24,954 bases of DNA from a virus, in the IMG/VR virus record IMGVR_UViG_3300013126_000227, positions 1-24,954 of that record, one strand, 5' to 3'. Under the pieces are notes generated by a model. The model worked only from the letters and a program-made list of their open reading frames with translations. It made no database searches and had not been told where the DNA came from. This document shows positions 4,926 through 23,652 of the stretch, piece after piece (within the stretch, counting starts at the first letter, position 1; every line of letters starts with the position of its first letter). The translations under genes were made by a program, and so were the position numbers.

Positions 4926-6293
4926 ATGAGTAAAAAAAACATAACAAACGAACTGATACAAACGCAATACTCTGTTTTACCAGAATTACACTTAGTTTTT
5001 GGTGGTTTAGAAAACCGAACCCCTGATGACGCATTTATTCCTGAAGCGGATGCACTTTTTGCTAGACGTGTAAATAATGTAGAAAAATGTTTAATCGCAG
5101 ATAATAACGAATGGCAATACGGAAAAGTATATGATGCGTGGAGTCCAGAACTAACAAGCAACAATTATTATGTTTATAATTCTTCTAACAGAATTGTGTA
5201 TCTGTGCACAGATAATAAACCTAATAACAGAATAGACGAAGATTCGGCAATATCCACAGCTATACCATCACATATCACACCAGAAATACAAACATATGAA
5301 GACGGATACAGTTGGATTCCTCTTTTTATGGTTGATGTTAGTCAGATAGAATTTTTATCAAAAACAGATTTGCCCATACCAAATCTGCGAGGAACTAAAA
5401 ATTATCAATCATTTTCTGAAAAATATAATTCTTTATGTGGATCCGGTGTAACAGCATTCGGTTGTTGTTGTCTATACTTTAAAGATAACAGTGTAGATGA
5501 ACTAACCGGAGAAGTATATTCTGCTGGTGATCTAACCAATGAAACCATATTTTCTGATTGTTTTGAGTGCCAAAAAATAGCAGACGCACTAAACAGAGAA
5601 GTGCTATTTTTGAGTGGTGTCACGACTGGAGGAGTAACTTCGTCACATCCACCAGAAAATCCACTATGTCCAGCAACAAAAACTATAAAAACACTACAAC
5701 AAGAATTACAAGACGAACAATACACACTATCTCCAGGATCTAGCCGTGAATACGCTTTGTATTTGTTAAATAATTTTGCTAACGATAAAGGTATTATGTC
5801 TGCACGAATAGATCTAGCATCGGTTACCGATAAAATAATATCTAACGAAAATCCAGAGCTCCAGATAGCAGATGCAACAGGAACAGGAGCAAAAATTATA
5901 TTTACAACTGCTCCTTATTCATACAACGAATATGAAGTTACTGGGGTTTCTCTGGTATCTTCAGGAACAAATTATACACAAGTAACAGATTGGGGAGATT
6001 TAGAAGGAACTAACCTAGAAGTACTATTAAAATTAATATATTTTCCTGAAAATTTTTATAACGATCCAACAACTTTAATATCAGCAAAAAGAATCAGAAT
6101 CAAAGTTAACGTTAGTTCTGATGACATTTCTAGTGCAGTGGATACGAATAAAATAACAAAATTTGCGGTTCTAGTAAATCCTAAATTATACGATTCGGAT
6201 GCACCTGCAATATATCCTGAAGGGGACAATAGTATACGTTCTTTACAAACTTTTGCCTTTGCTGCCACGGGTCCTACAATAGTAGAAGTATAA
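4926..6293 (+). CDS. 8: Baseplate wedge protein gp8-like, with Cys-rich insertion
   Basis: 455 residues; T4 gp8 is 334. The N-terminal half carries the gp8 pattern: 'WQYGKVYDAWSPE' (63-75), 'YYVYNSSNRIVYLCTDN' (81-97) and 'PEIQTYEDGYSWIPLFMVD' (119-137), matching the family's W-x-Y, Y-V-Y/YLC and TDGY-x-W landmarks. A later piece, 'GTGAKIIF' plus 'EYEVTGVSLVSSGTNYTQ', fits the beta domain in which gp8 relatives read G-x-G-x-x-Y-T. Between these halves, residues about 171-270 are extra and contain seven cysteines including a CCC run. The usual C-terminal ending of the family (SGE-L-x-Y ... E-x-I-x-I) is missing here but seems to be present in the next gene, so gp8 may be split. gp8 dimers lie at the outer edge of the wedge and contact gp7 and gp10 in T4. 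Confidence 0.82.
   Translation: MSKKNITNELIQTQYSVLPELHLVFGGLENRTPDDAFIPEADALFARRVNNVEKCLIADNNEWQYGKVYDAWSPELTSNNYYVYNSSNRIVYLCTDNKPNNRIDEDSAISTAIPSHITPEIQTYEDGYSWIPLFMVDVSQIEFLSKTDLPIPNLRGTKNYQSFSEKYNSLCGSGVTAFGCCCLYFKDNSVDELTGEVYSAGDLTNETIFSDCFECQKIADALNREVLFLSGVTTGGVTSSHPPENPLCPATKTIKTLQQELQDEQYTLSPGSSREYALYLLNNFANDKGIMSARIDLASVTDKIISNENPELQIADATGTGAKIIFTTAPYSYNEYEVTGVSLVSSGTNYTQVTDWGDLEGTNLEVLLKLIYFPENFYNDPTTLISAKRIRIKVNVSSDDISSAVDTNKITKFAVLVNPKLYDSDAPAIYPEGDNSIRSLQTFAFAATGPTIVEV
5436..5735 (+). other. Cysteine-rich insertion inside the gp8-like protein
   Basis: Residues about 171-270 of the gp8-like protein: C171, a C-C-C run at 180-182, C212 and C215 (C-x2-C), C248, plus a Gln/Glu-rich stretch. 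It interrupts the two recognisable gp8 segments. The beginning ('FGCCCLYF', then 'DCFEC') looks like a degenerate or shortened relative of the G-x-C-C modules in the fibre genes. Boundaries are approximate. Confidence 0.55.
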
Positions 6294-11237: not shown

Positions 11238-14066
11238 ATGAAAATTGTAGGATCCAGTTTAGTATCGTCTTTAGCCAGAGCGTTTTCTGTTACTGGTCCA
11301 ACTGGAGCGACAGGAATAACGGGCTCAAAAGGATTAACAGGATATGGTTTAACTGGAATTAGTGGTTCTGATGTTATTGGTATTTCTTTAAATAATAGAT
11401 ACATCTTAACTACATTTTCTGATGGAACAACTTATCAATCTTCTAAACAAATTTATGGTACTACTGGTCCTACTGATTATGTTTTAGACATTAAAAATTT
11501 AGGAACAGGTTTTAGTTTAGCAACACAAATAAATAAAAAATTAAGTCCTGCAATAAATTTTGGAATTACTCCTTATCAGGAAATTGTTCTTCGTGGTATA
11601 ACTTTTACAAATAATACTGATTCTTTGTTTTCTGCTAGAAGAAGAACAGTTGGATCAAACATATATTATGAAATAAATTTACAACAACAACAAGGACTAA
11701 CAGTTGCTTCTAGTTCGTCTTCTACTGTAAATTTATTACAATTTGATAATAATAAAGCAATACAAAGAATAAACTTAGCCTATGGTGTGACGTTAGATAA
11801 TGGAACTCCTACAAATTTAATGGGAATAAATTTTATAGGAGCAAATATATTTGAAAAGACGAGAGGAATTGGTTGGACTGGTTCAACAGGAGCAGTTAAT
11901 TGTGTATTTACTCTTGATGGAATAACATGCACATTGGATCCCTTTAAAACAGAATTAGACAGTTTAATGTTTGGTTCTTCTTCAAAGGTTTTTATTGGAG
12001 ACTTTAAAGATAATAAAACAACTATAGAATTAGTTCCTCCACCGATAGATGGAAATGCTTATTCTTTTGATTTATTTTTATCTGGCGCATTAAATCCAAC
12101 TAATATTAACAATAGATTTAGAGGTCCTATATATTGGCCAAAAGGAAATCCTCCTTGTTTTTCTGTTGATGGAATCACATGTGGAATAAAGATGACATTT
12201 TTTGGTATTAATGGAACATGGTATTCTACTGCTGTTTCTACATCTACAAATTGCTCTGATAATTTATTCAAAACAAATTGCACTAACATAGAAATACCAT
12301 CATTACCAGAAAATATAATATTTTCAGTTGATGCGATTGGTGCTTGCTGTACTTCCGATGGTAATTGTTCAGAGACTAGTTATTATAATTGTTCTGGTTA
12401 TTTTCATGGAATAGGAACAACTTGTGGTACTACATTAGACTCAATATGTTCTAAACCGGGAGTTTGTTGTAGAAAAACAATAATAAATGGCATAGAGAAT
12501 ATTGATGCATTTTCTGATCAATTAACTTGTTATGAGTGTTTGGGTTTTACTGATCAAACTGTAAAATTTGCTGGAAATTATACAACAAAAGAGACTACAA
12601 ATTGTAACAACGTTTTTAATAGGATTGGAGCGTGCTGTAATGGACGTGGTGGTTGTTCTCAACTAACCAGAGAAGAATGTGATCAAGCTAATGGGTTTTA
12701 TCAAGGAGATGATATTGATTGTGTTGATTATTATGGAAATTCTATTTGTGGTTCTGGAACCGGGCCTTGCTGTATAAATGGAAGTTGCACAGAACAAAGT
12801 TATTTAAATTGTTTTGCTAGTAATGGTTTGTACGGCGGTAACGACAAGAGTTGTTCTAATTTTATTTGTCCCACAAAAAATAGTTGTTTAGGATTTATAA
12901 ATGGTATCCCTGTATATGAAGGTTCGCAATATGCTGGTGGTATTGTTGTTGGAACTTTCAATCCAGGAATATCTGAAATTTTAGGAGCAAAAGAGCTGTT
13001 TGATTTTGCTGGATTTACTTTAACAGATAATGATACTTTATGTAAGTTATATAAAAATGCTTCTGATTATTATGCCTACGGAACCACGGGATCATGCTCT
13101 TCCGAAAATAATTCTTATGTAATAATAATATACCCATATGATATTGCTATAGATGGTTTTAATAATATTAAAAATCCAGAAACTGAACTCTTTATTCAAA
13201 ATAAATTTGTATGGGGTGGAACGGGATCTTCTTGGGGACCATTAAACAATATCAATAATAGCTATAATGATGTTACTTTTGTTGATTATGACTATAGAAA
13301 TACACATCTAAAATTTACAGAAGGTTATTGGTCTCTTGGATTTACCGGAGCAACACAAGCAAATAATCAACTGTTATTGAATAACACATTTGCTACATGT
13401 AACTATACAGAAATTTTTGGTAATGATGCAGAAGCAAAACAATTTGCTAAATCTCCGTATAATGCACACGGACTGTGGTATAGGTCTTGGGGCTTAATGA
13501 ATACTATTAGGGCAATTTCTGCATATAATTTTTATACTTTAAATAAAAATGAAGAAACCTTAGGAATTTACAATTCTTCAGAGTTTGTTGGTATTACAAA
13601 AACAAATGCATTTTTAGCAACACGATTAATATCCGATGGATTAACTGCGGAAGTACAAGGAATAACAGCAAATCCTTCATATGTTTCTTCTTGGTTTCTA
13701 CCAAGTCACGATGAATTCGGATTCATTGCTTCTAAAACAATAAACAATTTTGGATTTAATATTAATCAAAGTTTAGCAAATTATGGCCAACCGTTAAATG
13801 GAACATATTGGACTTCTACTGGAACATTTTTATATTCAAATAATGAAGGAATATATGATGGAATAAATAAACCGTCTCCTGGTTCTGTTGCTATAGCTAT
13901 TAATATTGATGTAAATGGAGATTTAACTCAATATAATGTTCTAAAATTACCTAGAAAAACTACTAGTTGCAAAGTTCGACCAATAAGAATAATACGATGT
14001 AATCAAGATGTGCCAAATCTTAAATTGTGGTCAATTCCAAAAATTATAAACAGTAATATAAATTAA
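11238..14066 (+). CDS. Collagen-like / Cys-module / DUF1566-type adhesin fibre
   Basis: 942 residues in clear blocks. (1) A short collagen-like Gly-X-Y stretch at 20-43. (2) A beta-rich block ending near 366 with 'YWPKGNPPCFSVDG' and 'MTFFGINGTWYSTAV', a pattern shared with other phage collagen-like proteins. (3) Residues 368-544: four cysteine modules beginning GACC, GVCC, GACC and GPCC. (4) From ~550: 'SQYAGGIVVGTFNPG', then 'WFLPSHDEFGF' (819-829), 'YWTST' (857-861) and 'VRPIRIIRC' near 913-921. Block 4 matches the DUF1566 / Lcl_C pattern W-x-L-P-S-x-x-E ... Y-W-[ST]-S-T ... V-R-x-x-R. In Legionella Lcl, collagen repeats joined to this domain act as a glycan-binding adhesin; that comparison is family knowledge and the receptor role here is inference. 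There is no signal peptide and no clear Shine-Dalgarno sequence. Confidence 0.75.
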   Translation: MKIVGSSLVSSLARAFSVTGPTGATGITGSKGLTGYGLTGISGSDVIGISLNNRYILTTFSDGTTYQSSKQIYGTTGPTDYVLDIKNLGTGFSLATQINKKLSPAINFGITPYQEIVLRGITFTNNTDSLFSARRRTVGSNIYYEINLQQQQGLTVASSSSSTVNLLQFDNNKAIQRINLAYGVTLDNGTPTNLMGINFIGANIFEKTRGIGWTGSTGAVNCVFTLDGITCTLDPFKTELDSLMFGSSSKVFIGDFKDNKTTIELVPPPIDGNAYSFDLFLSGALNPTNINNRFRGPIYWPKGNPPCFSVDGITCGIKMTFFGINGTWYSTAVSTSTNCSDNLFKTNCTNIEIPSLPENIIFSVDAIGACCTSDGNCSETSYYNCSGYFHGIGTTCGTTLDSICSKPGVCCRKTIINGIENIDAFSDQLTCYECLGFTDQTVKFAGNYTTKETTNCNNVFNRIGACCNGRGGCSQLTREECDQANGFYQGDDIDCVDYYGNSICGSGTGPCCINGSCTEQSYLNCFASNGLYGGNDKSCSNFICPTKNSCLGFINGIPVYEGSQYAGGIVVGTFNPGISEILGAKELFDFAGFTLTDNDTLCKLYKNASDYYAYGTTGSCSSENNSYVIIIYPYDIAIDGFNNIKNPETELFIQNKFVWGGTGSSWGPLNNINNSYNDVTFVDYDYRNTHLKFTEGYWSLGFTGATQANNQLLLNNTFATCNYTEIFGNDAEAKQFAKSPYNAHGLWYRSWGLMNTIRAISAYNFYTLNKNEETLGIYNSSEFVGITKTNAFLATRLISDGLTAEVQGITANPSYVSSWFLPSHDEFGFIASKTINNFGFNINQSLANYGQPLNGTYWTSTGTFLYSNNEGIYDGINKPSPGSVAIAINIDVNGDLTQYNVLKLPRKTTSCKVRPIRIIRCNQDVPNLKLWSIPKIINSNIN
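11295..11366 (+). repeat. Collagen-like Gly-X-Y stretch in the 942-residue protein
   Basis: Residues 20-43: six regular Gly triplets (G-P-T, G-A-T, G-I-T, G-S-K, G-L-T, G), one break, then G-L-T-G-I-S-G. It is short and degenerate compared with the two following genes. The 11-base string GGTCCAACTGG at 11295-11305 recurs exactly at 14143-14153. Confidence 0.8.
12339..12869 (+). repeat. Array of four G-x-C-C cysteine modules
   Basis: Residues 368-544. Modules begin at GACC (368), GVCC (408), GACC (464) and GPCC (~502). The typical module has G-x-C-C, a Cys five or six residues later, T/S-x-x-x-C, an aromatic-Gly segment, and two closing cysteines, for about 36-40 residues. The second copy is longer and less regular (it contains C-Y-E-C). 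Confidence 0.85.
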
Positions 14067-14070
14067 ACCC

Positions 14071-15210
14071 ATGCTACAACGAATAGGATCAACAACTATA
14101 CCCATAAAAAATAATAAAATCTCTCAAGGATTTTCTTTTATGGGTCCAACTGGCCCAACGGGTCCAACAGGATCGACCGGTAATACTGGTTCTACAGGAA
14201 ATACTGGAGCAACGGGTATTGGTGTATTTTATTTATATCCCATAAATTCGGATGGAATAACACTATATTTAACCATACCAACCCCCCCAATAGAGTTGAT
14301 CGGTATATCGGGCCAATCTCCTACAACCACAGAGTCTTTTAATCTATTAAAAAATAAAATTAATGTTTTGAATGCAGGAGCAACGACAAGTAATCAGTTT
14401 TTATTTACAGGATTACCTGGTCAAGCAGGATTTACTGCTTATTATGCTTCATTCAAGATAAGTGGAGATGGTTTAACTGCATATTATAGTGGTGATGATA
14501 TAGTTTTTAAAGGAATTACTGTAAATTATGGCATAGGTGTTTCAGGTTCTGTTCTTGGTTCGTTTGGTAATACTGCAAATGCAATTTTAGATCCATCAAA
14601 TAGTTCATTATTTACTTATAAAGAAAATTTAGTAGGAATTACAACAGAAAACATAGCATTTGCAAAATTAAATTCTTTTTTTCAAGCAAAAAATTCTACT
14701 GGTATTACTAATATAAATTTAACAAAAATAAATGGTTTAACATTTATAATAAAAAATCCTTGGAATATTTTTACAAATACATTTTATATTGAAGGAAATA
14801 CTTGGTCTTCTCAACAATTATATCAGTCTAATTATTCTTCAGTAACAGGCCCACAGGGAGTTTCAGCTCCTCAAATTTATAATATAGACATTTTTAATAC
14901 AACAAACACTACAAATTATGGATTTAGAAAAGTTGGTTCTTGTTGTTATTGTGAAGGTGCTGGTCTTAAAACTTGTATTGATTACACAACAGAAAAATAC
15001 TGTATAGATATTATAGACGGAATATTTTCAACAGATCCTTGCATTACTAGAAGAAATAATGTTGGATCTTTTCCTTGTGATGATTTTGGATCCTGTTGTG
15101 TAAATGGAAATTGTGTTAATACTTCCAGAGAAACTTGTACTAAATTTGCTGGTTCTGTATTCAGTGTGGATACTCTGTGTGCTGATGCTAATAATGCCTG
15201 TAATCCTTAA
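14071..15210 (+). CDS. Short collagen-like fibre with two Cys modules
   Basis: 379 residues. The N-terminus ('MLQRIGSTTIPI') precedes an unbroken run of nine Gly-X-Y triplets (residues 25-51). The middle is beta-rich, with 'NPWNIFTNTFYIEGNTW' at about 231-247, apparently related to the pre-cysteine block of the 942- and 1711-residue proteins. The C-terminus (289-379) carries two cysteine modules opening G-S-C-C; the second, 'GSCCVNGNCVNTSRETC', is among the most regular in the window. Unlike the 942-residue protein it ends there, with no DUF1566-type domain, so it reads as a shorter member of the same gene family. It starts four bases after the previous stop. A TATAAATT at 14057-14064 lies just upstream, one base off the late promoter octamer. 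Confidence 0.75.
   Translation: MLQRIGSTTIPIKNNKISQGFSFMGPTGPTGPTGSTGNTGSTGNTGATGIGVFYLYPINSDGITLYLTIPTPPIELIGISGQSPTTTESFNLLKNKINVLNAGATTSNQFLFTGLPGQAGFTAYYASFKISGDGLTAYYSGDDIVFKGITVNYGIGVSGSVLGSFGNTANAILDPSNSSLFTYKENLVGITTENIAFAKLNSFFQAKNSTGITNINLTKINGLTFIIKNPWNIFTNTFYIEGNTWSSQQLYQSNYSSVTGPQGVSAPQIYNIDIFNTTNTTNYGFRKVGSCCYCEGAGLKTCIDYTTEKYCIDIIDGIFSTDPCITRRNNVGSFPCDDFGSCCVNGNCVNTSRETCTKFAGSVFSVDTLCADANNACNP
14143..14223 (+). repeat. Collagen-like Gly-X-Y run, nine triplets
   Basis: Residues 25-51, Gly at every third position, with P-T three times and then S-T, N-T and A-T. Thr in the Y position replaces the hydroxyproline of animal collagens, as is usual in bacterial and phage collagen-like proteins. 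Expected to form a trimeric triple-helical stalk. Confidence 0.9.
14935..15207 (+). repeat. Two G-x-C-C cysteine modules
   Basis: Residues 289-379. The first opens GSCCYC and has C, C and C at later positions with 'D-G-I-F-S' before the final Cys; the second is GSCCVNGNC with E-T-C, 'G-S-V-F-S' and two closing cysteines. Confidence 0.85.
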
Positions 15211-15220
15211 TATAGAGTAT

Positions 15221-15228
15221 TATAAATA
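15221..15228 (+). promoter_or_regulatory. Possible T4-type late promoter octamer (TATAAATA)
   Basis: An exact TATAAATA in the 25-base gap before the 1711-codon gene, ending seven bases before its ATG at 15236. With T4 spacing, transcription would start almost at the ATG, giving a leaderless or nearly leaderless message. That spacing argues for caution; it may be chance in A+T-rich spacer DNA. Confidence 0.3.
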
Positions 15229-15235
15229 ATAAAAA

Positions 15236-18200
15236 ATGCCAACAATTATAGGAAACAGCATAATACAAAACACAGGCGGTGCTACCGGTCCACAAGGACC
15301 ACAGGGGCCACAAGGACCAACAGGGCCTATCGGCACTACAGGAAACACTGGTAGTGCTGGACCTACTGGTTCTTATATTGCTGGAATAACAAAAAATCAA
15401 AATAATCATTTAATTTTTGAATTGTCTGATGGAACTTTATTGTACAGTGGAAGTGCCTTTACTGGACCTACTGGCACATATTCAAATGTATCAGGAATAA
15501 CTTATGTGTCTCCGGGATTTTTATCAATATTTAAAGATGTAGATGGAGGCAAAACTTTACAATTTAGAGGGATCTGTGGTTCTGAAAATGTAATTGTGCA
15601 ACAAAATTATGATAAATCAGCATTAAATATTATTTTTAATTCAATCAGTGGATCTGCAATATACGGAAATACTTCATCAAATTATTTAATATATTCAGAT
15701 GATAATTACACTGCTACTAGTTCCAAAATAGGAATAACATCTGATATTTTATCATTTGGTCTTACAGCAACAGATGGAGCTACTGGAAATTATGTAAAAG
15801 TATTTTCAGATTTTACTGAAAAATTATATACAATATCGAGTGTTGCTAGAGACCAGTCTCCTGGATCGGTATCACTTAATGATGTAGTAACTGGAGCATC
15901 TAATCAAGGATTGACTGTTAATTTAAATAAATATTCAGCATACTTTTTACAAACACCAATCGGTATAACAAATTTTGTTTGTAATTCAAATACAAATATA
16001 TTACAGTCGTATACTTTTTTTATAAATGGAGAGGATCTTTGGAATTTTCCAAGTAATGTCTACTTTGAAAATACTGATAAAGGAGTTGGAAGATATGATT
16101 TCTTACAAGGAATCAATATTATCAATATGTGGACCACGAATGGTGGTGTTTCATTCAATGCCTCTATAATAGAACGTGGTATTGGTCCTCAAAAAACATA
16201 TTATTCAGATTCTGTTGGTTCTTGTTGCTATAATGGTGGTTCTTCTTGTCAAGAATACGTTTCTCCTTCATTTTGCGAATCTTTAAGTGGTGTTTTTTCT
16301 CCACTAAAAAATTGTGACACTACTTGTGGTGTATTTGGTAGTTGTTGTATTCAAGGTAACTGTTATGATAATATAGAACAATCAATCTGTTTAGGGTTTG
16401 GTGGTTCTTTTAGAACTCAATCTTGCGCTGAATTGTCATGTCCTCCAGTTATAAAACAAGGAGCATGTTGTCAGCAATACGGAACGTGTTTAGATAATAT
16501 TTTAGAAGCAAATTGTAATCCTAACTATTTTCATTTAAATAAATCATGTGCAGAATTAAGCACTACTTGTGGTTCTAATACGATAGGAACGTGTGGAGAA
16601 CCTATTAACTGCACAGTATATTCCAATCAGACAAGATCTGCTTGCGATGATTTAAAATTATCGGATCCATCTTTAAACTTTTATCCTAATAATGATACAG
16701 TAAATCCTTGGCCAGGTTGTGCTACTGGTAATTGTTGTGCCAGTGACGCAACAATTCCAGAAAGCCCGACTTGGGCTTGTTATGGTGCAAGAACAAAACC
16801 ACAATGTGATGTACTGGGTGCAGGACCAAATAAATCTAGTACATGGCACATAGGAGTAACAGACTGTAATATTCTCGGGGCAAGTAATTGTGTAAACCAA
16901 TGTGTTGGAGGCTCTTGTTTTGGCTCTTGTTGTGTGGATCCTTCTCGTAATGAAGGAGTAAATTGTATTAGAGCAACCCAGACTGATTGTATTAATACTT
17001 ATTTTGGAACATGGTATGAAGGATTCCCATGCGCTTCTGATATTTGTGGTAATTATCCAATAGTTGTGTATGGTGCTTGTTGCGTGGGTGATACTTGCCA
17101 AGTAACAACAGAACAAAATTGCACAGCATTAGATGGAGGCAGTTGGTCTGCGTATACCCCATGTACTATGTCTACTTGTGTTGATACCAATGTTTATGAT
17201 TTCTCAATAACAGAAACAGACGGAACACTACTAACAAATGTTTATTTAAATACTGCTACCAATCCATACAGTAAATCTTTTAATATTGTTGTTACCAGTA
17301 ATTCTCCAAATCAATTTAGGCTATCTTTGCCTACCGCCATCATAGATAATGGTACAACTTATACAATAGTTAGATCCTCTGGAAACGATAGCACACTGTT
17401 AAACAGTGGAGCAACAATACCTATTACTGTTACTGTTTCCGCCAATACTAGTTTAATAGGTAGAAATGTCTCTCTTACAGGAACAATTAAAAATATAAAC
17501 AATTTAATAGTGAAAACGAGACAGATTAATGTTGTTGTTGGTTCTCCTATTCCTGGTATTGATGGATGTTCTAGTTGTTCTGCTAGTACAAATACTGCTA
17601 AAATACAATTAGAGGGAACTATAAAAAGATATTGTTTAGATTGCCAAAAATATGATTCCACCACAAAAACATTAAGACCGTATCCTGTAAAAGAACAACA
17701 AATTTATGCTAATGTTTGTGTAGATAAAAACACAGCAGTTCAGTGTGGTTGGGGAATTACACTCGATTGTGTCACTTACGGTGCGATAGATGATGTTTGG
17801 GATTGTCGTTACTCCTCTTCTTCTGTTGATAATGGAATAGCTGTTGCTTCGTATTATAATTGTCCCCATGTTGAGTATGGAACAGATAATAGTGATCTAA
17901 CACCATATGCAGGATTTTGGGAAAAAAATAAAAGAAGAACTGGAGCATCTTCTACTTTTAATTGCTCTGTTGATCCTAATTCTACAGATTATACTAATTC
18001 TTCAGCGATTTCTATGCAACCTAATCCTTTAGCTCCAAACTCAATAAATAGCTCAAATTACTGGAGAATTCTTATATCAAGGAAAAATAATGGTTGTGCT
18101 GGCGCTTCACCAACAACAAACAACACAGCAAAAGGTGCAGTTAAAACTTACAGTGGTGGTAACTGTTTTGGTGTTACTTTAGATCCATATTATTCCGAAA

Positions 18201-20371
18201 TAGAGTGGTCTCCAAATACTACTGCAAAATTAGGAAAATATTTCAGTGCTTCTTCAACAAACACCAGATTAACCAATATAGCAACAAGAATATTAAATTT
18301 AACAGTAAATGATGGAAAAACTGTTACATGGAATGGTTCATCGTATTCTATAGATTCAAAATTAGCATTTAATCCAGACAGACAAAATCAATCTGTTGCC
18401 ATAAATTCTGGTGATTGGGATTGTTGTAGTGGTATAAGTCTTTCTCAAATTCAAAATAGCGGAAAAATAATATTTTCAGAACCACCACCTGCAGGAAAAA
18501 TAACAAAATATTTATTGTTTTTAATTAAAAAATCAACATTAACAAATACTACTAATACAGCAACGAGAACTACCTCCACTACAACTTCTGCTACAAATTA
18601 TAATTCAAATGGTTGTAGATCTAGTTATTCATTATCAGTGGTAAAAATGATATTTAATTCTGATGGTTCTTTTGACGCTCTTAATAGTTGTTCGAGTAAT
18701 TTTTTAAGTGGACAATCGCAGTTTCCTTGGAAGGGAAATGGATATTATAAATCAACAAGATTAGATAGTTCTTGTATTGATTGTAGTTATGCAACCACAG
18801 AAACTTTGTATTCCGGATATCCAACACCTCTGTGGGACGCAATGCTAATAGGAGAAATAAATCCGTCAACAGATTTAGATTCTTCTAAAAATTTAATTTT
18901 TGAAACAGTAACCGATTATGATTCAAAAAATGTAGATGAATATTGTGATTTCTTATCAAATGATATTAGATTTGTACCAAATATCAATAATTATTGGAAA
19001 AATATATCAAATAAGAAACCAAAATTCACTCAATTACCGCTGGATGATGGTTACTTATTTGCTTATAGATTTAAAAAATTATACAGCGGTTCTGTTGAAT
19101 GTGCCACACTCAGCACCAAACTACAAACAATATGTTCTGGTAATAATTTTACCGCTTCTGGTTGTTTGATTGGAGAAGATCAGTATTCACATACTTCATA
19201 TTATTGTGAAACAGCTTTAACAAAATCACCAGTAAAAATTCTTTCAAAAATAGTTAATGAAAATTCTAATTATAACTCAAGCAGATACGATGAAATTTTA
19301 CAATATAATGTAAAACAACTTCCAGCACCCAATCAAGACCAAGCATCTCATGCTGTTACGATTATTGCTGGTTTTGATGCCCCCGCAACATCGGCATCTG
19401 TGAGTGCATTTAACAGAAGTGTTGACATCGAAGCCGGTAATGCTTTTTATGATACTGGTGGACAGTTTAGTGGTTACTCTCCTAACGCCATTCCTGAATT
19501 TGATTTTTCTGAAAATAGGAATTCAAATAAAATTCAAAATTGGTTAAATAACTCAAATCAAAAATATACAATCACTTCAACTGTGTATGCTACTGGTAAT
19601 CAAGTTGGAGGATTACTTGACTACTATGGAGATACTCCTGTAGTATCGTCAGAATTTACAATAAGGCAAACCCCAACCGGAACCGTTTTAACTCAACCTT
19701 TTGATGTAAATCCTGCAATTTCTATCACAGCAACAAGAAACACATCAAACAATACCATACAATCTGCATCCATAACAGTTAAACCAAACATATTCTTACA
19801 AGCAAGTAGTACAGAAGTTCAATTGAGTACTTTGGTAATGGATGCTTGGTTAGTGAATCCTAACTATGATGATGCTTCTGGTATGTTATTGAATGGTAAT
19901 ACTGGTTTTGTAAAAACCGGTTTGTATAGTAGTTCTGCTAATGTTGCAGCGAATTTACCAGGTGGTGCGGGTCAAACCCGAACTTTAAATGTGACAAAAA
20001 CAATAGGTGGTACTGTATATGGTATTCCATTAAAAATAATAAATGGAGAATATTTTGGGTCTGTTGTTGTTTTCTTAAAAGTAACAGCATTTATTAACGA
20101 TAATACAGGAAATCAAATCACAGATATTAGTAGACAGGGCTCTACTATTCCGAGAACTCGTGATATAGTAAAAATTTTACAATTTGATTTTAAAGTTGAC
20201 GGTACAGTACAATCATTAAATGATACCGATTTAAATGTTTTATCAATATTAGATGATAACAATTTAAAGACAAGTCAACCACGAATACAAAATAGATTAA
20301 TAAATAATATGTGTATAGCATTAGATTGTAGTAACAACGAATTGTTATGCGATAATTTAATTGGATGTTAA
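15236..20371 (+). CDS. Giant collagen-like / Cys-module fibre protein, 1711 residues
   Basis: Largest gene in the window. Blocks: a collagen-like run at residues 15-45; a beta-rich block with 'LWNFPSNVYFEN' and 'INIINMWTTNGGVSFNASI' that parallels the pre-cysteine blocks of the two preceding genes; six cysteine modules at 328-648 (GSCC, GSCC, GACC, GNCC, GSCC, GACC); an Ig-like beta sandwich at about 651-745; then nearly 1000 residues of Ser/Thr/Asn-rich sequence that I cannot assign. The latter contains scattered cysteine pairs (C-S-S-C, C-L-D-C, W-D-C-C, C-I-D-C) and beta-rich C-terminal domains ('ASITVKPNIFLQ', 'GEYFGSVVVFLKVT'). The very end, C-I-A-L-D-C-S-N-N-E-L-L-C, is again Cys-containing. 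Likely a long fibre or whisker. No signal peptide, no transmembrane segment. A possible late promoter lies just upstream. Confidence 0.75.
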   Translation: MPTIIGNSIIQNTGGATGPQGPQGPQGPTGPIGTTGNTGSAGPTGSYIAGITKNQNNHLIFELSDGTLLYSGSAFTGPTGTYSNVSGITYVSPGFLSIFKDVDGGKTLQFRGICGSENVIVQQNYDKSALNIIFNSISGSAIYGNTSSNYLIYSDDNYTATSSKIGITSDILSFGLTATDGATGNYVKVFSDFTEKLYTISSVARDQSPGSVSLNDVVTGASNQGLTVNLNKYSAYFLQTPIGITNFVCNSNTNILQSYTFFINGEDLWNFPSNVYFENTDKGVGRYDFLQGINIINMWTTNGGVSFNASIIERGIGPQKTYYSDSVGSCCYNGGSSCQEYVSPSFCESLSGVFSPLKNCDTTCGVFGSCCIQGNCYDNIEQSICLGFGGSFRTQSCAELSCPPVIKQGACCQQYGTCLDNILEANCNPNYFHLNKSCAELSTTCGSNTIGTCGEPINCTVYSNQTRSACDDLKLSDPSLNFYPNNDTVNPWPGCATGNCCASDATIPESPTWACYGARTKPQCDVLGAGPNKSSTWHIGVTDCNILGASNCVNQCVGGSCFGSCCVDPSRNEGVNCIRATQTDCINTYFGTWYEGFPCASDICGNYPIVVYGACCVGDTCQVTTEQNCTALDGGSWSAYTPCTMSTCVDTNVYDFSITETDGTLLTNVYLNTATNPYSKSFNIVVTSNSPNQFRLSLPTAIIDNGTTYTIVRSSGNDSTLLNSGATIPITVTVSANTSLIGRNVSLTGTIKNINNLIVKTRQINVVVGSPIPGIDGCSSCSASTNTAKIQLEGTIKRYCLDCQKYDSTTKTLRPYPVKEQQIYANVCVDKNTAVQCGWGITLDCVTYGAIDDVWDCRYSSSSVDNGIAVASYYNCPHVEYGTDNSDLTPYAGFWEKNKRRTGASSTFNCSVDPNSTDYTNSSAISMQPNPLAPNSINSSNYWRILISRKNNGCAGASPTTNNTAKGAVKTYSGGNCFGVTLDPYYSEIEWSPNTTAKLGKYFSASSTNTRLTNIATRILNLTVNDGKTVTWNGSSYSIDSKLAFNPDRQNQSVAINSGDWDCCSGISLSQIQNSGKIIFSEPPPAGKITKYLLFLIKKSTLTNTTNTATRTTSTTTSATNYNSNGCRSSYSLSVVKMIFNSDGSFDALNSCSSNFLSGQSQFPWKGNGYYKSTRLDSSCIDCSYATTETLYSGYPTPLWDAMLIGEINPSTDLDSSKNLIFETVTDYDSKNVDEYCDFLSNDIRFVPNINNYWKNISNKKPKFTQLPLDDGYLFAYRFKKLYSGSVECATLSTKLQTICSGNNFTASGCLIGEDQYSHTSYYCETALTKSPVKILSKIVNENSNYNSSRYDEILQYNVKQLPAPNQDQASHAVTIIAGFDAPATSASVSAFNRSVDIEAGNAFYDTGGQFSGYSPNAIPEFDFSENRNSNKIQNWLNNSNQKYTITSTVYATGNQVGGLLDYYGDTPVVSSEFTIRQTPTGTVLTQPFDVNPAISITATRNTSNNTIQSASITVKPNIFLQASSTEVQLSTLVMDAWLVNPNYDDASGMLLNGNTGFVKTGLYSSSANVAANLPGGAGQTRTLNVTKTIGGTVYGIPLKIINGEYFGSVVVFLKVTAFINDNTGNQITDISRQGSTIPRTRDIVKILQFDFKVDGTVQSLNDTDLNVLSILDDNNLKTSQPRIQNRLINNMCIALDCSNNELLCDNLIGC
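15278..15370 (+). repeat. Collagen-like Gly-X-Y run, ten triplets
   Basis: Residues 15-45: G-A-T, then three G-P-Q, then G-P-T, G-P-I, G-T-T, G-N-T, G-S-A, G-P-T and G. It begins almost at the N-terminus, so the triple helix would form the membrane- or baseplate-proximal end of the fibre. Confidence 0.9.
16217..17179 (+). repeat. Array of six G-x-C-C cysteine modules
   Basis: Residues 328-648. Openings in order: GSCC, GSCC, GACC, GNCC, GSCC, GACC. The best-kept copies are the second (GSCCIQGNC ... GGSF) and the sixth (GACCVGDTCQVTTEQNC ... GGSW). The fourth and fifth have longer loops between the CC pair and the next Cys, and a separate C-x-Y / R-x-A-C stretch with a different spacing lies between the third and fourth. 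Confidence 0.88.
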
Positions 20372-20376
20372 AATAA

Positions 20377-23046
20377 ATGTCTATTCAATTTAGAACCAGA
20401 ACTATAGGCCAAGAACTCCCAACAACGATTGCGGATAGTTCTGGATCTGGTTGGTGTTGTGGATTTGGTGGTGGTTATACTAAAGCAAAATGCATATCTC
20501 TTGGTGGTTTTTTTCTACCAAACGAATCAAATGATGTAAATTGTAAAACCATTTCTCCATGCAAAATAAATAAACTTAACGACAGCTTGGGCGGCGCGTG
20601 TTGTTATTGGGATAAATCTGGTGATTTTTTTATAAAAAAATGTAAAACTGTAGACAGCAAAATAGAATGTGATAATCTACACAAAGGATTGGACGAAGGA
20701 TTAAAATATAATTTTTATCCAGGAAGTTCTTGTGTTGTTGATGGTGGAGATATTGTTTGTAATGGTGTAAAACCAACACGCGAAGATTTGGATAATAATT
20801 GTAATCCTGACAGTATTGATAATTGTTTTGATTCTAAAAATATATTAGGAACTTGTTGTACCGATACAACAGAAGAACAAAAAAGTATTGGTTGTAAAAT
20901 ATCAACAAAAACAGAATGTGATACTGGTTTTTGGTCTCCTCCATATTTTGGAAAAATAATGTCTTGTGGTGGAAATACTTATCCATGTTATGGTGCGATG
21001 TTTTCTGGTAAATTTCTACCAGATGATGCGGCAAATGCTAATTTTACAACAGTAACAACAACTGATAATTACATCCAAAAACTTCCAACAATAGGAGATT
21101 ATTATCAAGGAGGAGTTTATGTTGGTATTTTTAAACCAGGATCACCTTTAAATTCTACGGGATCTGTAGTTTATGGAAATCCTATAGGCGGACCAATTAG
21201 TGATAATTATGTCGCTCGTGGAACTGGTGAAGGATTACAACAAGGAAATTCGTGGATACTAATAGCAGATACTGATGATTTTGATTTAAGACCATACGAA
21301 TTAACAACCAAATTTATTAAAGACGATTCAAAGAACTCGTCTACGTATGATGGTTTGTATAACACTTATAAAACACTTTCTCACAATTCAGAGTTATTTA
21401 ATTCTATAAAAAATTATAAAAAAAATGGATTTATAGATTGGTATATTCCCAGTCAGGATGAATTGGCATTTTATTTTAAAAATATACCTTATAATTATAA
21501 TTCTAAGTATTATAATAATTTACTTTATGAACAGTATATGTCTTCAACTGTTTTTTTTGATTATTTTATACCAAATTTAAACGAAGTTGATTTATTAATT
21601 TATTCTCAGTTAAACACCAAAGATAATTACGGAAAAGTTGTTGTGTCTTCTCAGTATACTACCATGGGTATTAGATTGTTTAGACGGATTTATCTGGACG
21701 CTATTAGCACAAAAGGATTTTCGTTAGAACAAAGACCTAATTGTGAGACTTGTTTAAATGATGCTGCTAGAAGACGCAATGAAAAAATAAAAGTACAAAG
21801 AAAACTGGTAGAAGATCTAGAAAATCAAATATTATTGGGAATTATGCCTGATGGTAGTCCTGTTGATTGCAATAATCAAGCAGAATTCAGTGAAGTCTGT
21901 TGTTGGCAAGCAGCAGAAGACGGTCTTTTAAATTTAATAGAACAGCAGATTGATTGGACCAGCGAAGGAGCAATCGCACTATATCTCGAACTAGTATCAC
22001 TATTATTAGGAATTGATTTAGGCACTCTTTACCAATTGTTTAATATTACCAGAAATCCAGCAGCATTCTTTTGGTATGGTGTGTTTCCACCAACCAATAG
22101 GCCTCCACTTCCCGGTGAAGCAGGAGGATGGGTAAAAGTTACTAGAAAAGTAGGAGGAAGGACAACTACGGCTTGGGAACCATCGATGAGGAATTCGCAA
22201 AGCGCCGGAAAACTAATAGATGGTCTTAATGGTCGAAATGGTTATGTACAACAACTAGAATTCAGGGAAGCAGTAGCAAGAAGCAGTGTTCCACCAGATC
22301 AAGAAGAATTAAATAGAATTGCCAGAGAAAGAAGAAGAGTATGGCAGTTATTTACAAAACGAGGAATACCAAATCCAGGAACTGGCACTATTATATATTC
22401 TCAACCTACCATAAAAGATGTTAGCACTAAAAGACTAGTAGTTCAACAATTTAAAGAAAATTTAAAAAGAGTGGGCAGAGGATTGACAACGGAACTACGA
22501 CGTGCTGGTGTAACAGCTGGTAGAAATTTATTACGAAATTTATTATTAAGATCACCACTTCTCCTTGCGGCTCTTGGTGGTGCCGCTCTTGCATTAGTCT
22601 ATAAACTTTTAGAGGACTACGTTGCTTGTTGTTGGGCACTAGAAGAAACTCTTAAAGAAGCGCGGGAACGCGCATGGGGTAGAGACGATTGTAAATGTAG
22701 TCCGAGTTGCTTAGATCCAACTTCAACATTTTGCTCGTATTGTGATTCAGCCAGTAGAGGCTGTTGTAAGGGCTCTTGTTCTGATTTAGAATGTCTTGGG
22801 GCTATAGGAATGATTAATAAAGATTACGAGCAGGATGTATTTAGTTGTTGTAGCAATGGTACTTTGTGTCCAACTCCAGGAAAACCAAAACCAAAAATAT
22901 GTCAAAATTTTCCTAATTGTCTCCCTAAAACAGACGGATGCCAATCGGCAGATGATAATTTAATCACTAATCCTTTAGAAGGCAAATGTCGTCCAGGAGG
23001 ACCCAGAGAACAGGACGATAAACCAATAACTACAGCACAAGAATAA
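20377..23046 (+). CDS. Cys-module / DUF1566-type protein with hydrophobic and Cys-rich tail
   Basis: 889 residues, a chimera of at least three parts. (1) Residues 25-204: three cysteine modules opening GWCC, GACC and GTCC; no collagen stretch precedes them. (2) About 240-440: 'GDYYQGGVYVGIFKPG' (240-255), 'WYIPSQDELAFYF' (355-367), 'YMSST' (387-391) and 'GIRLFRRI' (~431-438). These line up with the DUF1566-type domain of the 942-residue protein in order, but the W of YWTST is replaced by M. (3) From ~450 a different style: a charged helix ('RRRNEKIKVQRKLVEDLENQ'), Arg-rich helices, a hydrophobic segment at ~722-739 and a second Cys-rich tail (about 760-870) with other spacings. Part 3 is unlike any fibre here and might anchor the protein. 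Starts five bases after the previous stop without a Shine-Dalgarno sequence. Confidence 0.68.
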   Translation: MSIQFRTRTIGQELPTTIADSSGSGWCCGFGGGYTKAKCISLGGFFLPNESNDVNCKTISPCKINKLNDSLGGACCYWDKSGDFFIKKCKTVDSKIECDNLHKGLDEGLKYNFYPGSSCVVDGGDIVCNGVKPTREDLDNNCNPDSIDNCFDSKNILGTCCTDTTEEQKSIGCKISTKTECDTGFWSPPYFGKIMSCGGNTYPCYGAMFSGKFLPDDAANANFTTVTTTDNYIQKLPTIGDYYQGGVYVGIFKPGSPLNSTGSVVYGNPIGGPISDNYVARGTGEGLQQGNSWILIADTDDFDLRPYELTTKFIKDDSKNSSTYDGLYNTYKTLSHNSELFNSIKNYKKNGFIDWYIPSQDELAFYFKNIPYNYNSKYYNNLLYEQYMSSTVFFDYFIPNLNEVDLLIYSQLNTKDNYGKVVVSSQYTTMGIRLFRRIYLDAISTKGFSLEQRPNCETCLNDAARRRNEKIKVQRKLVEDLENQILLGIMPDGSPVDCNNQAEFSEVCCWQAAEDGLLNLIEQQIDWTSEGAIALYLELVSLLLGIDLGTLYQLFNITRNPAAFFWYGVFPPTNRPPLPGEAGGWVKVTRKVGGRTTTAWEPSMRNSQSAGKLIDGLNGRNGYVQQLEFREAVARSSVPPDQEELNRIARERRRVWQLFTKRGIPNPGTGTIIYSQPTIKDVSTKRLVVQQFKENLKRVGRGLTTELRRAGVTAGRNLLRNLLLRSPLLLAALGGAALALVYKLLEDYVACCWALEETLKEARERAWGRDDCKCSPSCLDPTSTFCSYCDSASRGCCKGSCSDLECLGAIGMINKDYEQDVFSCCSNGTLCPTPGKPKPKICQNFPNCLPKTDGCQSADDNLITNPLEGKCRPGGPREQDDKPITTAQE
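20449..20988 (+). repeat. Array of three G-x-C-C cysteine modules
   Basis: Residues 25-204. Openings GWCC (25), GACC (~73) and GTCC (~160). The copies are longer and more degenerate than in the upstream genes, with charged loops inserted, but keep the G-x-C-C opening, an internal Cys after x-x-x-C-x-x-L/x, and closing cysteines. Confidence 0.78.
22540..22593 (+). other. Hydrophobic, possibly membrane-inserting segment
   Basis: Residues about 722-739 of the 889-residue protein: LLLRSPLLLAALGGAALALV, flanked by Arg-rich sequence on the N-side and by K-L-L-E-D-Y on the C-side. Length and Ala/Leu/Gly content suit a transmembrane helix or a buried helix. It is the only such segment noticed in the window. 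Confidence 0.5.
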
Positions 23047-23094: not shown

Positions 23095-23652
23095 ATGGGA
23101 TGTGGATGTAATAAAAATAAACAAAATTCAGAATTTAAAGAACAATCTCCAACGAGTGAAACTAAAAATATACTTTCTCAAAAAATGAGCATGGTTAAAA
23201 GTTTTGCTTCCGCGATTGCTTCTCGTGGTTTATCTAATAATAAAGTAAATAAAGCCACAAAACAATTACGGGTTCTTAGTTGTTTTGGTAATCAACACAC
23301 TGGAGGAGAATTACCTCCTTGTGAGTATCTAAAACAAAGCACTACACCAGGAAAACATTACTGTGGAGGGTGTGGTTGTGGAGATAAACCAAGAACATGG
23401 TTAATGGCAGAAGGAGAAGAATACAGTAAATTAGATTATCCAAATCTAAACTGCCCATTAAATATGCCAGGATTTACTAATTATCAACCCAGCAAACCCG
23501 ATGAAGCAAACTCTCCAATAACTAGAAGATATTATCTTGAAAATATAGATTATAACGAGATAATTAAAACTTCGGTTTCTCTTCCAGAAGCCCCACCTAA
23601 CGAATCAGCCAATAAAGATCCCCAACAAGAGACAACAAATAAAGATCAATAA
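23095..23652 (+). CDS. Small Cys-rich protein of unknown function
   Basis: 185 residues with eight cysteines: C3 and C5 at the very N-terminus (MGCGC), C63, C76, then C90, C93 and C95 in 'YCGGCGCGDKPRTW', and C120. The middle (about 57-130), with 'KQLRVLSCFGN', 'GELPPCEYLK' and 'EEYSKLDYPNLNCPLNMPGF', has the look of a compact conserved domain. The C-x2-C-x-C plus outlying cysteines suggests zinc or iron-sulfur binding rather than the disulfide modules of the fibres, which it does not resemble. The C-terminus is Pro/Asn/Asp-rich and probably disordered. It has a strong ribosome binding site and sits between the fibre block and the neck genes. It could be a virion accessory protein or a chaperone for the Cys-rich fibres; neither is shown. 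Confidence 0.7.
   Translation: MGCGCNKNKQNSEFKEQSPTSETKNILSQKMSMVKSFASAIASRGLSNNKVNKATKQLRVLSCFGNQHTGGELPPCEYLKQSTTPGKHYCGGCGCGDKPRTWLMAEGEEYSKLDYPNLNCPLNMPGFTNYQPSKPDEANSPITRRYYLENIDYNEIIKTSVSLPEAPPNESANKDPQQETTNKDQ

Follow-up and report, generated by a model that had tools for sequence, protein, structure and literature searches.

The window examined here, the whole 24,954-base record (33% GC) of an uncultivated bacterial virus, carries 16 copies of a six-cysteine module that begins with GxCC. We consider it probable that these modules are one small, unnamed disulfide domain that serves phage host-recognition fibres as a stackable rigid unit and is oxidised after lysis. The domain would comprise about 38 residues folded as a β-hairpin, a helix and a strand, with disulfides C1–C4, C2–C6 and C3–C5. 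It is missing from the tested libraries, to which it would be an addition: the module had no match at curated cut-offs in Pfam, NCBIfam or PHROG, and our literature search found no published description of it.

The source virus is a T4-like myovirus, as indicated by T4-type genes for gp6, the head–tail adaptor and head closure. PHROG matches to T4-type genes were strong (gp6, phrog_219, E = 7e-73; phrog_211, E = 4e-37; phrog_460, E = 4e-55), and the gene set of the window also includes further baseplate-wedge proteins and a gp25 called solely by position and size. Four large open reading frames (ORFs) with modules, g11238, g14071, g15236 and g20377, lie between the baseplate and neck genes, and a fifth, g591, lies upstream. 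Cysteines make up 3.4–4.7% of the residues in these five ORFs versus 0–0.7% in gp6, gp25, the neck proteins and several other virion ORFs. The ORFs and their non-module features are as follows.

591-1709, + strand: ORF g591 (372 aa, 16 Cys), single-module protein of the tail/baseplate region; C-terminal match to phrog_350 tail protein, E = 5e-6
11238-14066, + strand: ORF g11238 (942 aa, 35 Cys), GxT short repeats, then four modules and an Lcl_C-like end (sequence, orthologs)
13600-13990, + strand: Lcl_C-like domain of g11238, approximate bounds (PF07603 in orthologs)
14071-15210, + strand: ORF g14071 (379 aa, 13 Cys), collagen-like start and two C-terminal modules (Pfam and PHROG matches)
14143-14214, + strand: GPT collagen-like repeats of g14071 (PF01391, E = 0.0047, under the Pfam cut-off)
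15236-20371, + strand: ORF g15236 (1711 aa, 71 Cys), collagen-like start, six modules and a long C-terminal part; the collagen-like start matches tail-fiber phrog_10972, E = 1.3e-7
15278-15370, + strand: collagen-like repeats of g15236 (PF01391, E = 0.0017, under the cut-off)
20377-23046, + strand: ORF g20377 (889 aa, 42 Cys), three divergent modules; phrog_4245, E = 3.7e-4
21382-21552, + strand: weak Lcl_C-like stretch in g20377 (PF07603, E = 0.15)
23095-23652, + strand: ORF g23095 (185 aa, 8 Cys), conserved neighbour free of modules, about 60–66% identity in related loci

The sequence-only reading had described the carriers as a family of giant fibre proteins. That description suits g14071 and g15236, with their collagen-like segments and tail-fibre PHROG matches, and g11238 with its Lcl_C-like end; g20377 and g591 are better described as baseplate- or tail-region proteins, and we assign them no fibre role. 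The fibre proteins would consist of a collagen-like, probably trimeric, start followed by a string of modules, with at least one fibre tipped by an Lcl_C-like, probably glycan-binding, domain. PF07603 was detected in 28 of 41 g11238 orthologs (E ≤ 1, best E = 2.4e-5), while g11238 of the window itself gave no Pfam match. The family is named for the C-terminal domain of the Legionella collagen-like adhesin Lcl, which resembles our virus in pairing such an end, here in g11238 orthologs, with collagen-like repeats, here in the sister fibres. Lcl is a carbohydrate-binding bacterial surface adhesin, and the abstract describing it mentions no GxCC modules (PMC11162425). A Foldseek match of the g11238 model to 4eps was not relied on, as its E value of 6e-4 was accompanied by a TM score of only 0.2. 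Two further g11238 cysteines, one after the last module and one near the C terminus (about 12885 and 13998; positions 194 and 565 of alignment A3), were lost together in three of the 41 orthologs, a single row being discordant; from the sequences, a long-range disulfide closing the tip domain is possible.

A six-frame scan returned exactly 16 in-frame GxCC modules, all within the five ORFs and at the sites where they had been counted by eye, one of them (1089) outside the interval 11238-23046 to which the module had been referred. In the list below, bit scores are from the bacterial hidden Markov model (HMM) described thereafter.

1089-1196, + strand: module 1, in g591; 5.7 bits, marginal
12339-12449, + strand: module 2, in g11238; 18.8 bits
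12459-12605, + strand: module 3, in g11238, divergent; C3 and C5 missing at their usual places, additional Cys ahead of C4
12627-12749, + strand: module 4, in g11238; 35.0 bits
12762-12869, + strand: module 5, in g11238; 23.9 bits
14935-15078, + strand: module 6, in g14071, divergent, additional Cys; cysteine pattern
15088-15201, + strand: module 7, in g14071; 23.6 bits
16217-16327, + strand: module 8, in g15236; 10.4 bits; AlphaFold2 (AF2) model, pLDDT 91
16337-16441, + strand: module 9, in g15236; 12.9 bits; AF2 model
16460-16570, + strand: module 10, in g15236; 12.3 bits; AF2 model
16727-16891, + strand: module 11, in g15236, divergent, long loops; cysteine pattern
16922-17047, + strand: module 12, in g15236; 6.9 bits, marginal
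17072-17179, + strand: module 13, in g15236, canonical spacing; 23.9 bits
20449-20562, + strand: module 14, in g20377, divergent, C3 missing; cysteine pattern
20593-20760, + strand: module 15, in g20377, divergent, long loops; cysteine pattern
20848-20988, + strand: module 16, in g20377, divergent; cysteine pattern

The order C1C2–C3–x7/8–C4–C5–C6 was present in 14 of the 16 copies, several with longer loops elsewhere; the copies at 12459 and 20449 have odd cysteine numbers and lack C3 at its usual place. Similarity extends beyond the CC pair, with the glycine and C1–C5 invariant among 11 canonical copies. For an out-of-sample comparison, an HMM was built from 515 bacterial modules, all phage sequence being excluded, and scored against a null of 1,700 shuffled window proteins. 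Eight window copies scored 10.4–35 bits and two more 5.7–6.9, the best shuffle reaching 7.8; about half of the copies are thus recognised independently. Together with the alignment, these matches bear out the idea that a single module recurs through the adsorption region. The remaining divergent copies (the three in g20377 and those at 12459, 14935 and 16727) we accept as modules from their position, cysteine order and orthologs. Over 826 unique six-cysteine modules, the modal spacing was the canonical CC-x5-C-x7-C-x13-C-x4-C. All six cysteines are strongly conserved; cysteines and glycines are kept while loop residues vary strongly. A related-locus search with the window array or with profile A1 returned nothing.

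We then followed the module through viral and bacterial sequences; because the pattern scans prefer canonical copies, the distribution counts are lower bounds. In IMG/VR, in-frame DNA patterns recovered 84 and 111 stretches, while an out-of-frame pattern used as a null gave eight, all random. Modules were held by 138 of 176 fetched IMG/VR loci. A homolog of at least one window ORF was found in 113 loci, many of which keep parts of the baseplate–fibre–neck cassette running from gp6 to the neck. The largest module ORFs reach 1,950 aa and 284 cysteines, so that T4-like phages can place more than 100 cysteines in one fibre-region ORF. The tested module sequences had no match among 50,697 deposited phages, in which gp6 found about 29% identity at best. 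T4-like cyanophages, pelagiphages and Methylophilales phages share homologs of gp6 and the neck proteins but lack the tested cysteine-module sequences. In one locus (L105), a module-bearing ORF of 1,381 aa starts MSKVMGLDNYVWFQGVVEDRNDPLKLGRCRVRCLGF, resembling a gp5-type baseplate hub; judging by this start, modules may also be present in hub proteins.

Among the bacterial matches listed, the pattern scan gave mainly Phycisphaerae and other Planctomycetota. Profile searches at E = 1e-6 found the module in 22 of 120 genomes in the class of a Phycisphaeraceae genome. At the same threshold, the phylum around a Bacteroidetes locus gave one of 118 genomes, namely the centre genome, and the phylum around a Pseudomonadales locus gave none of 120; at 1e-3, seven of 149 genomes matched in the phylum to which a Planctomycetaceae genome belongs. 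A single genome had 165 profile matches. The link to Planctomycetes and environmental phages, raised in the sequence-only reading, is substantiated by the IMG/VR and bacterial pattern scans and by the profile search of the class around the Phycisphaeraceae genome. The secreted GACC-type repeats of Phycisphaerae and other Planctomycetota, an unnamed family, share module and spacing with the phage copies and form tandem arrays of up to 30 per ORF in fetched loci. By profile match and six-cysteine order, the window modules would count as members of this family. The two sides differ in setting: planctomycete GACC proteins usually, though not by definition, carry a signal peptide, whereas phage copies occur in virion-region proteins without one. 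A heuristic found signal-like N termini in 61 of 84 bacterial module proteins versus none of 153 viral ORFs, the latter as expected of virion proteins. Collagen-like starts and a baseplate context may be particular to the phage side, the only one on which they have so far been noted. Nearest neighbours of viral modules were mixed (426 viral, 194 bacterial), favouring neither direction for the possible movement of modules between host surface proteins and phage that the sequence-only reading had proposed.

Searches for structural relatives pointed to the iRhom homology domain (IRHD) of the animal signalling proteins iRhom1 and iRhom2. PDB searches with profiles A1, A2 and A3 ranked iRhom first each time, with weak best E values of 0.016, 0.0047 and 8.8, and Foldseek against 350,542 chains placed iRhom1 chains at ranks 1 and 2 (E = 1.1 and 1.3, TM below 0.3). 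The IRHD contains one motif CC-x6-C-x7-C-x13-C-x4-C with matching non-cysteine residues; it differs from the phage proteins in holding one full and one partial motif within a membrane-protein ectodomain of roughly 240 residues, with no tandem array. It is extracellular, has 16 cysteines in eight disulfides and was reported to have no similar structure (PMC11248996, PMC10148629). A disulfide reported for mouse iRhom2, C527–C548, does not settle how the cysteines of the module pair (PMC10148629). Kinship of the modules with the iRhom domain seems to us an even call on these sequence and model comparisons. If true, it would provide an evolutionary relative for a medically important domain that has had none. 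A single-module model also matched E3T4H5 of Cafeteria roenbergensis virus (BFVD, 147 aa) by Foldseek (E = 0.46, with a probability of 0.97 and an rmsd of 1.9 across 37 columns). This protein comes from a giant virus of a eukaryote, and its fold match hints that the module may have spread to viruses of eukaryotes.

The widest reading is that a single undescribed disulfide domain family joins T4-like phage fibres, Phycisphaerae secreted proteins, a giant virus and the iRhom ectodomain, with the phages using it as an expandable block oxidised after lysis; we hold it tentatively, at somewhat below even chances. Set against it is convergence of the phage and planctomycete modules and iRhom on a stable six-cysteine spacing, without common descent. 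Small cysteine-rich domains readily converge, and the iRhom scores are weak (HMM E = 0.005–0.02, Foldseek E about 1), but an iRhom2 segment scored 42 versus 8 (s.d. 6) for shuffles that kept its cysteines at their positions, none of 2,000 reaching it, with iRhom having been preselected as the best PDB match. Convergence is a serious possibility, to which we give slightly less than an even chance.

Within the phages, the arrays differ in length. GxCC counts, some from incomplete loci, were mostly 3–4 in g11238 orthologs, 1–15 in those of g14071 and 0–28 in those of g15236. As copy number is free in g15236 and g14071 and nearly fixed in g11238, the arrays probably set reach and surface. The modules could instead be receptor-binding parts that contact host proteins or glycans, array changes shifting host range and disulfides merely stabilising the binding face. 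Loops that vary between fixed cysteines and glycines, the varying copy number and the divergence of the fibre genes (28–38% median ortholog identity, compared with about 61% for neck genes) are in keeping with such a role; yet several baseplate genes are equally diverged, and the likely tip of g11238 is its separate Lcl_C-like end. We regard a primary binding role as rather unlikely.

A disulfide-bonded unit is supported by the fold and the cysteine losses. AF2 modelling of three tandem window modules from an alignment of 111 rows gave a mean pLDDT of 91.4 and the same hairpin, helix and strand in each; a pTM of 0.56 leaves the relative placement of the modules uncertain. Disulfide pairing was deduced from paired cysteine losses in homologous modules rather than from model coordinates. 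Modules without C2 lacked C6 in 15 of 19 cases, compared with 84 of 1,098 others (odds ratio 45, P = 2e-13, uncorrected for kinship); on inspection, about eight of the 19 were true modules, seven of these without C6. Clean double losses occurred in g11238 orthologs, where Ile stands at both the C2 and C6 positions or Met and Ile share them (L071, L171, L155), while one module (L122) had lost C2 but retained C6. C3 was missing jointly with C5 or C6 in four loci (L018, L123, L114, L086), and C1 and C4 were lost together in one (L275). These patterns give good support to a C2–C6 disulfide and fair support to C3–C5; C1–C4 is suggested by its one case and mainly by elimination. An apparently perfect C3–C5 co-variation in the g11238 alignment was discarded as proof of pairing after row inspection showed shifted or replaced cysteines in the two modules concerned.

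Of the two fates proposed for the cysteines in the sequence-only reading, disulfides thus agree with the losses, since one pair can disappear while the others stay, a pattern that does not fit a metal cluster. The accompanying suggestion of a fibre lock, in which inter-chain disulfides would join adjacent chains after lysis, appears improbable: odd-cysteine modules leave free cysteines and collagen-like starts suggest trimers, but in canonical copies the bonds are more likely intra-module, to judge from the confidently predicted monomer fold and from the losses of cysteine pairs within modules. Binding of zinc or another metal through the cysteines, with folding in the reducing cytoplasm, is very improbable, for although the cytoplasm is where virion proteins are synthesised and all six cysteines are strongly conserved, the module has no conserved His, His is very scarce in the module ORFs, cysteine pairs vanish singly, the bacterial homologs appear secreted and the similar iRhom domain is extracellular and disulfide-bonded (PMC11248996, PMC10148629).

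For the disulfide domain, the fibre chains would be produced reduced in the cytoplasm and most likely form their disulfides when virions reach oxygen after lysis; the bonds would then make the fibres more resistant to proteases and shear. A DsbA search with a working positive control found none in 22 related virus records, mostly fragments, and an Erv1/ALR search run without a positive control gave no match in the related records, likewise mostly fragments. Given the missing DsbA match and the absence of signal peptides on the phage proteins, air oxidation after lysis would be the simplest course, and we consider it plausible. Disulfides in phage particles have a precedent in the Qβ capsid (PMC7283501). 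With this system, the route by which phage proteins gain disulfides when no enzyme for it is obvious becomes testable.

Cysteines also stand out elsewhere in the window. Adjoining the neck genes, the small cysteine-rich ORF g23095 begins MGCGCNK and continues further on with CGGCGCG; its median identity is 60% across 22 related loci, with no match among deposited phages. At 5460, a baseplate-wedge-like ORF (4926-6293, 9 Cys) holds a lone GFGCCC(LYF) outside the module pattern. psbA was rejected as a host clue, as both contigs carrying it lack the module. On the contig of L013 (L306, L308), a PF00124 photosystem reaction-centre gene lies in two pieces with two TGA and one TAA internal stops, perhaps reflecting an intron or decay. 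In Synechococcus phage S-CAM9 (H26–H29), the 266 residues of the neck-protein match are spread in two pieces over 1,119 bases, and the gene may hold an insertion of roughly 300 bases.
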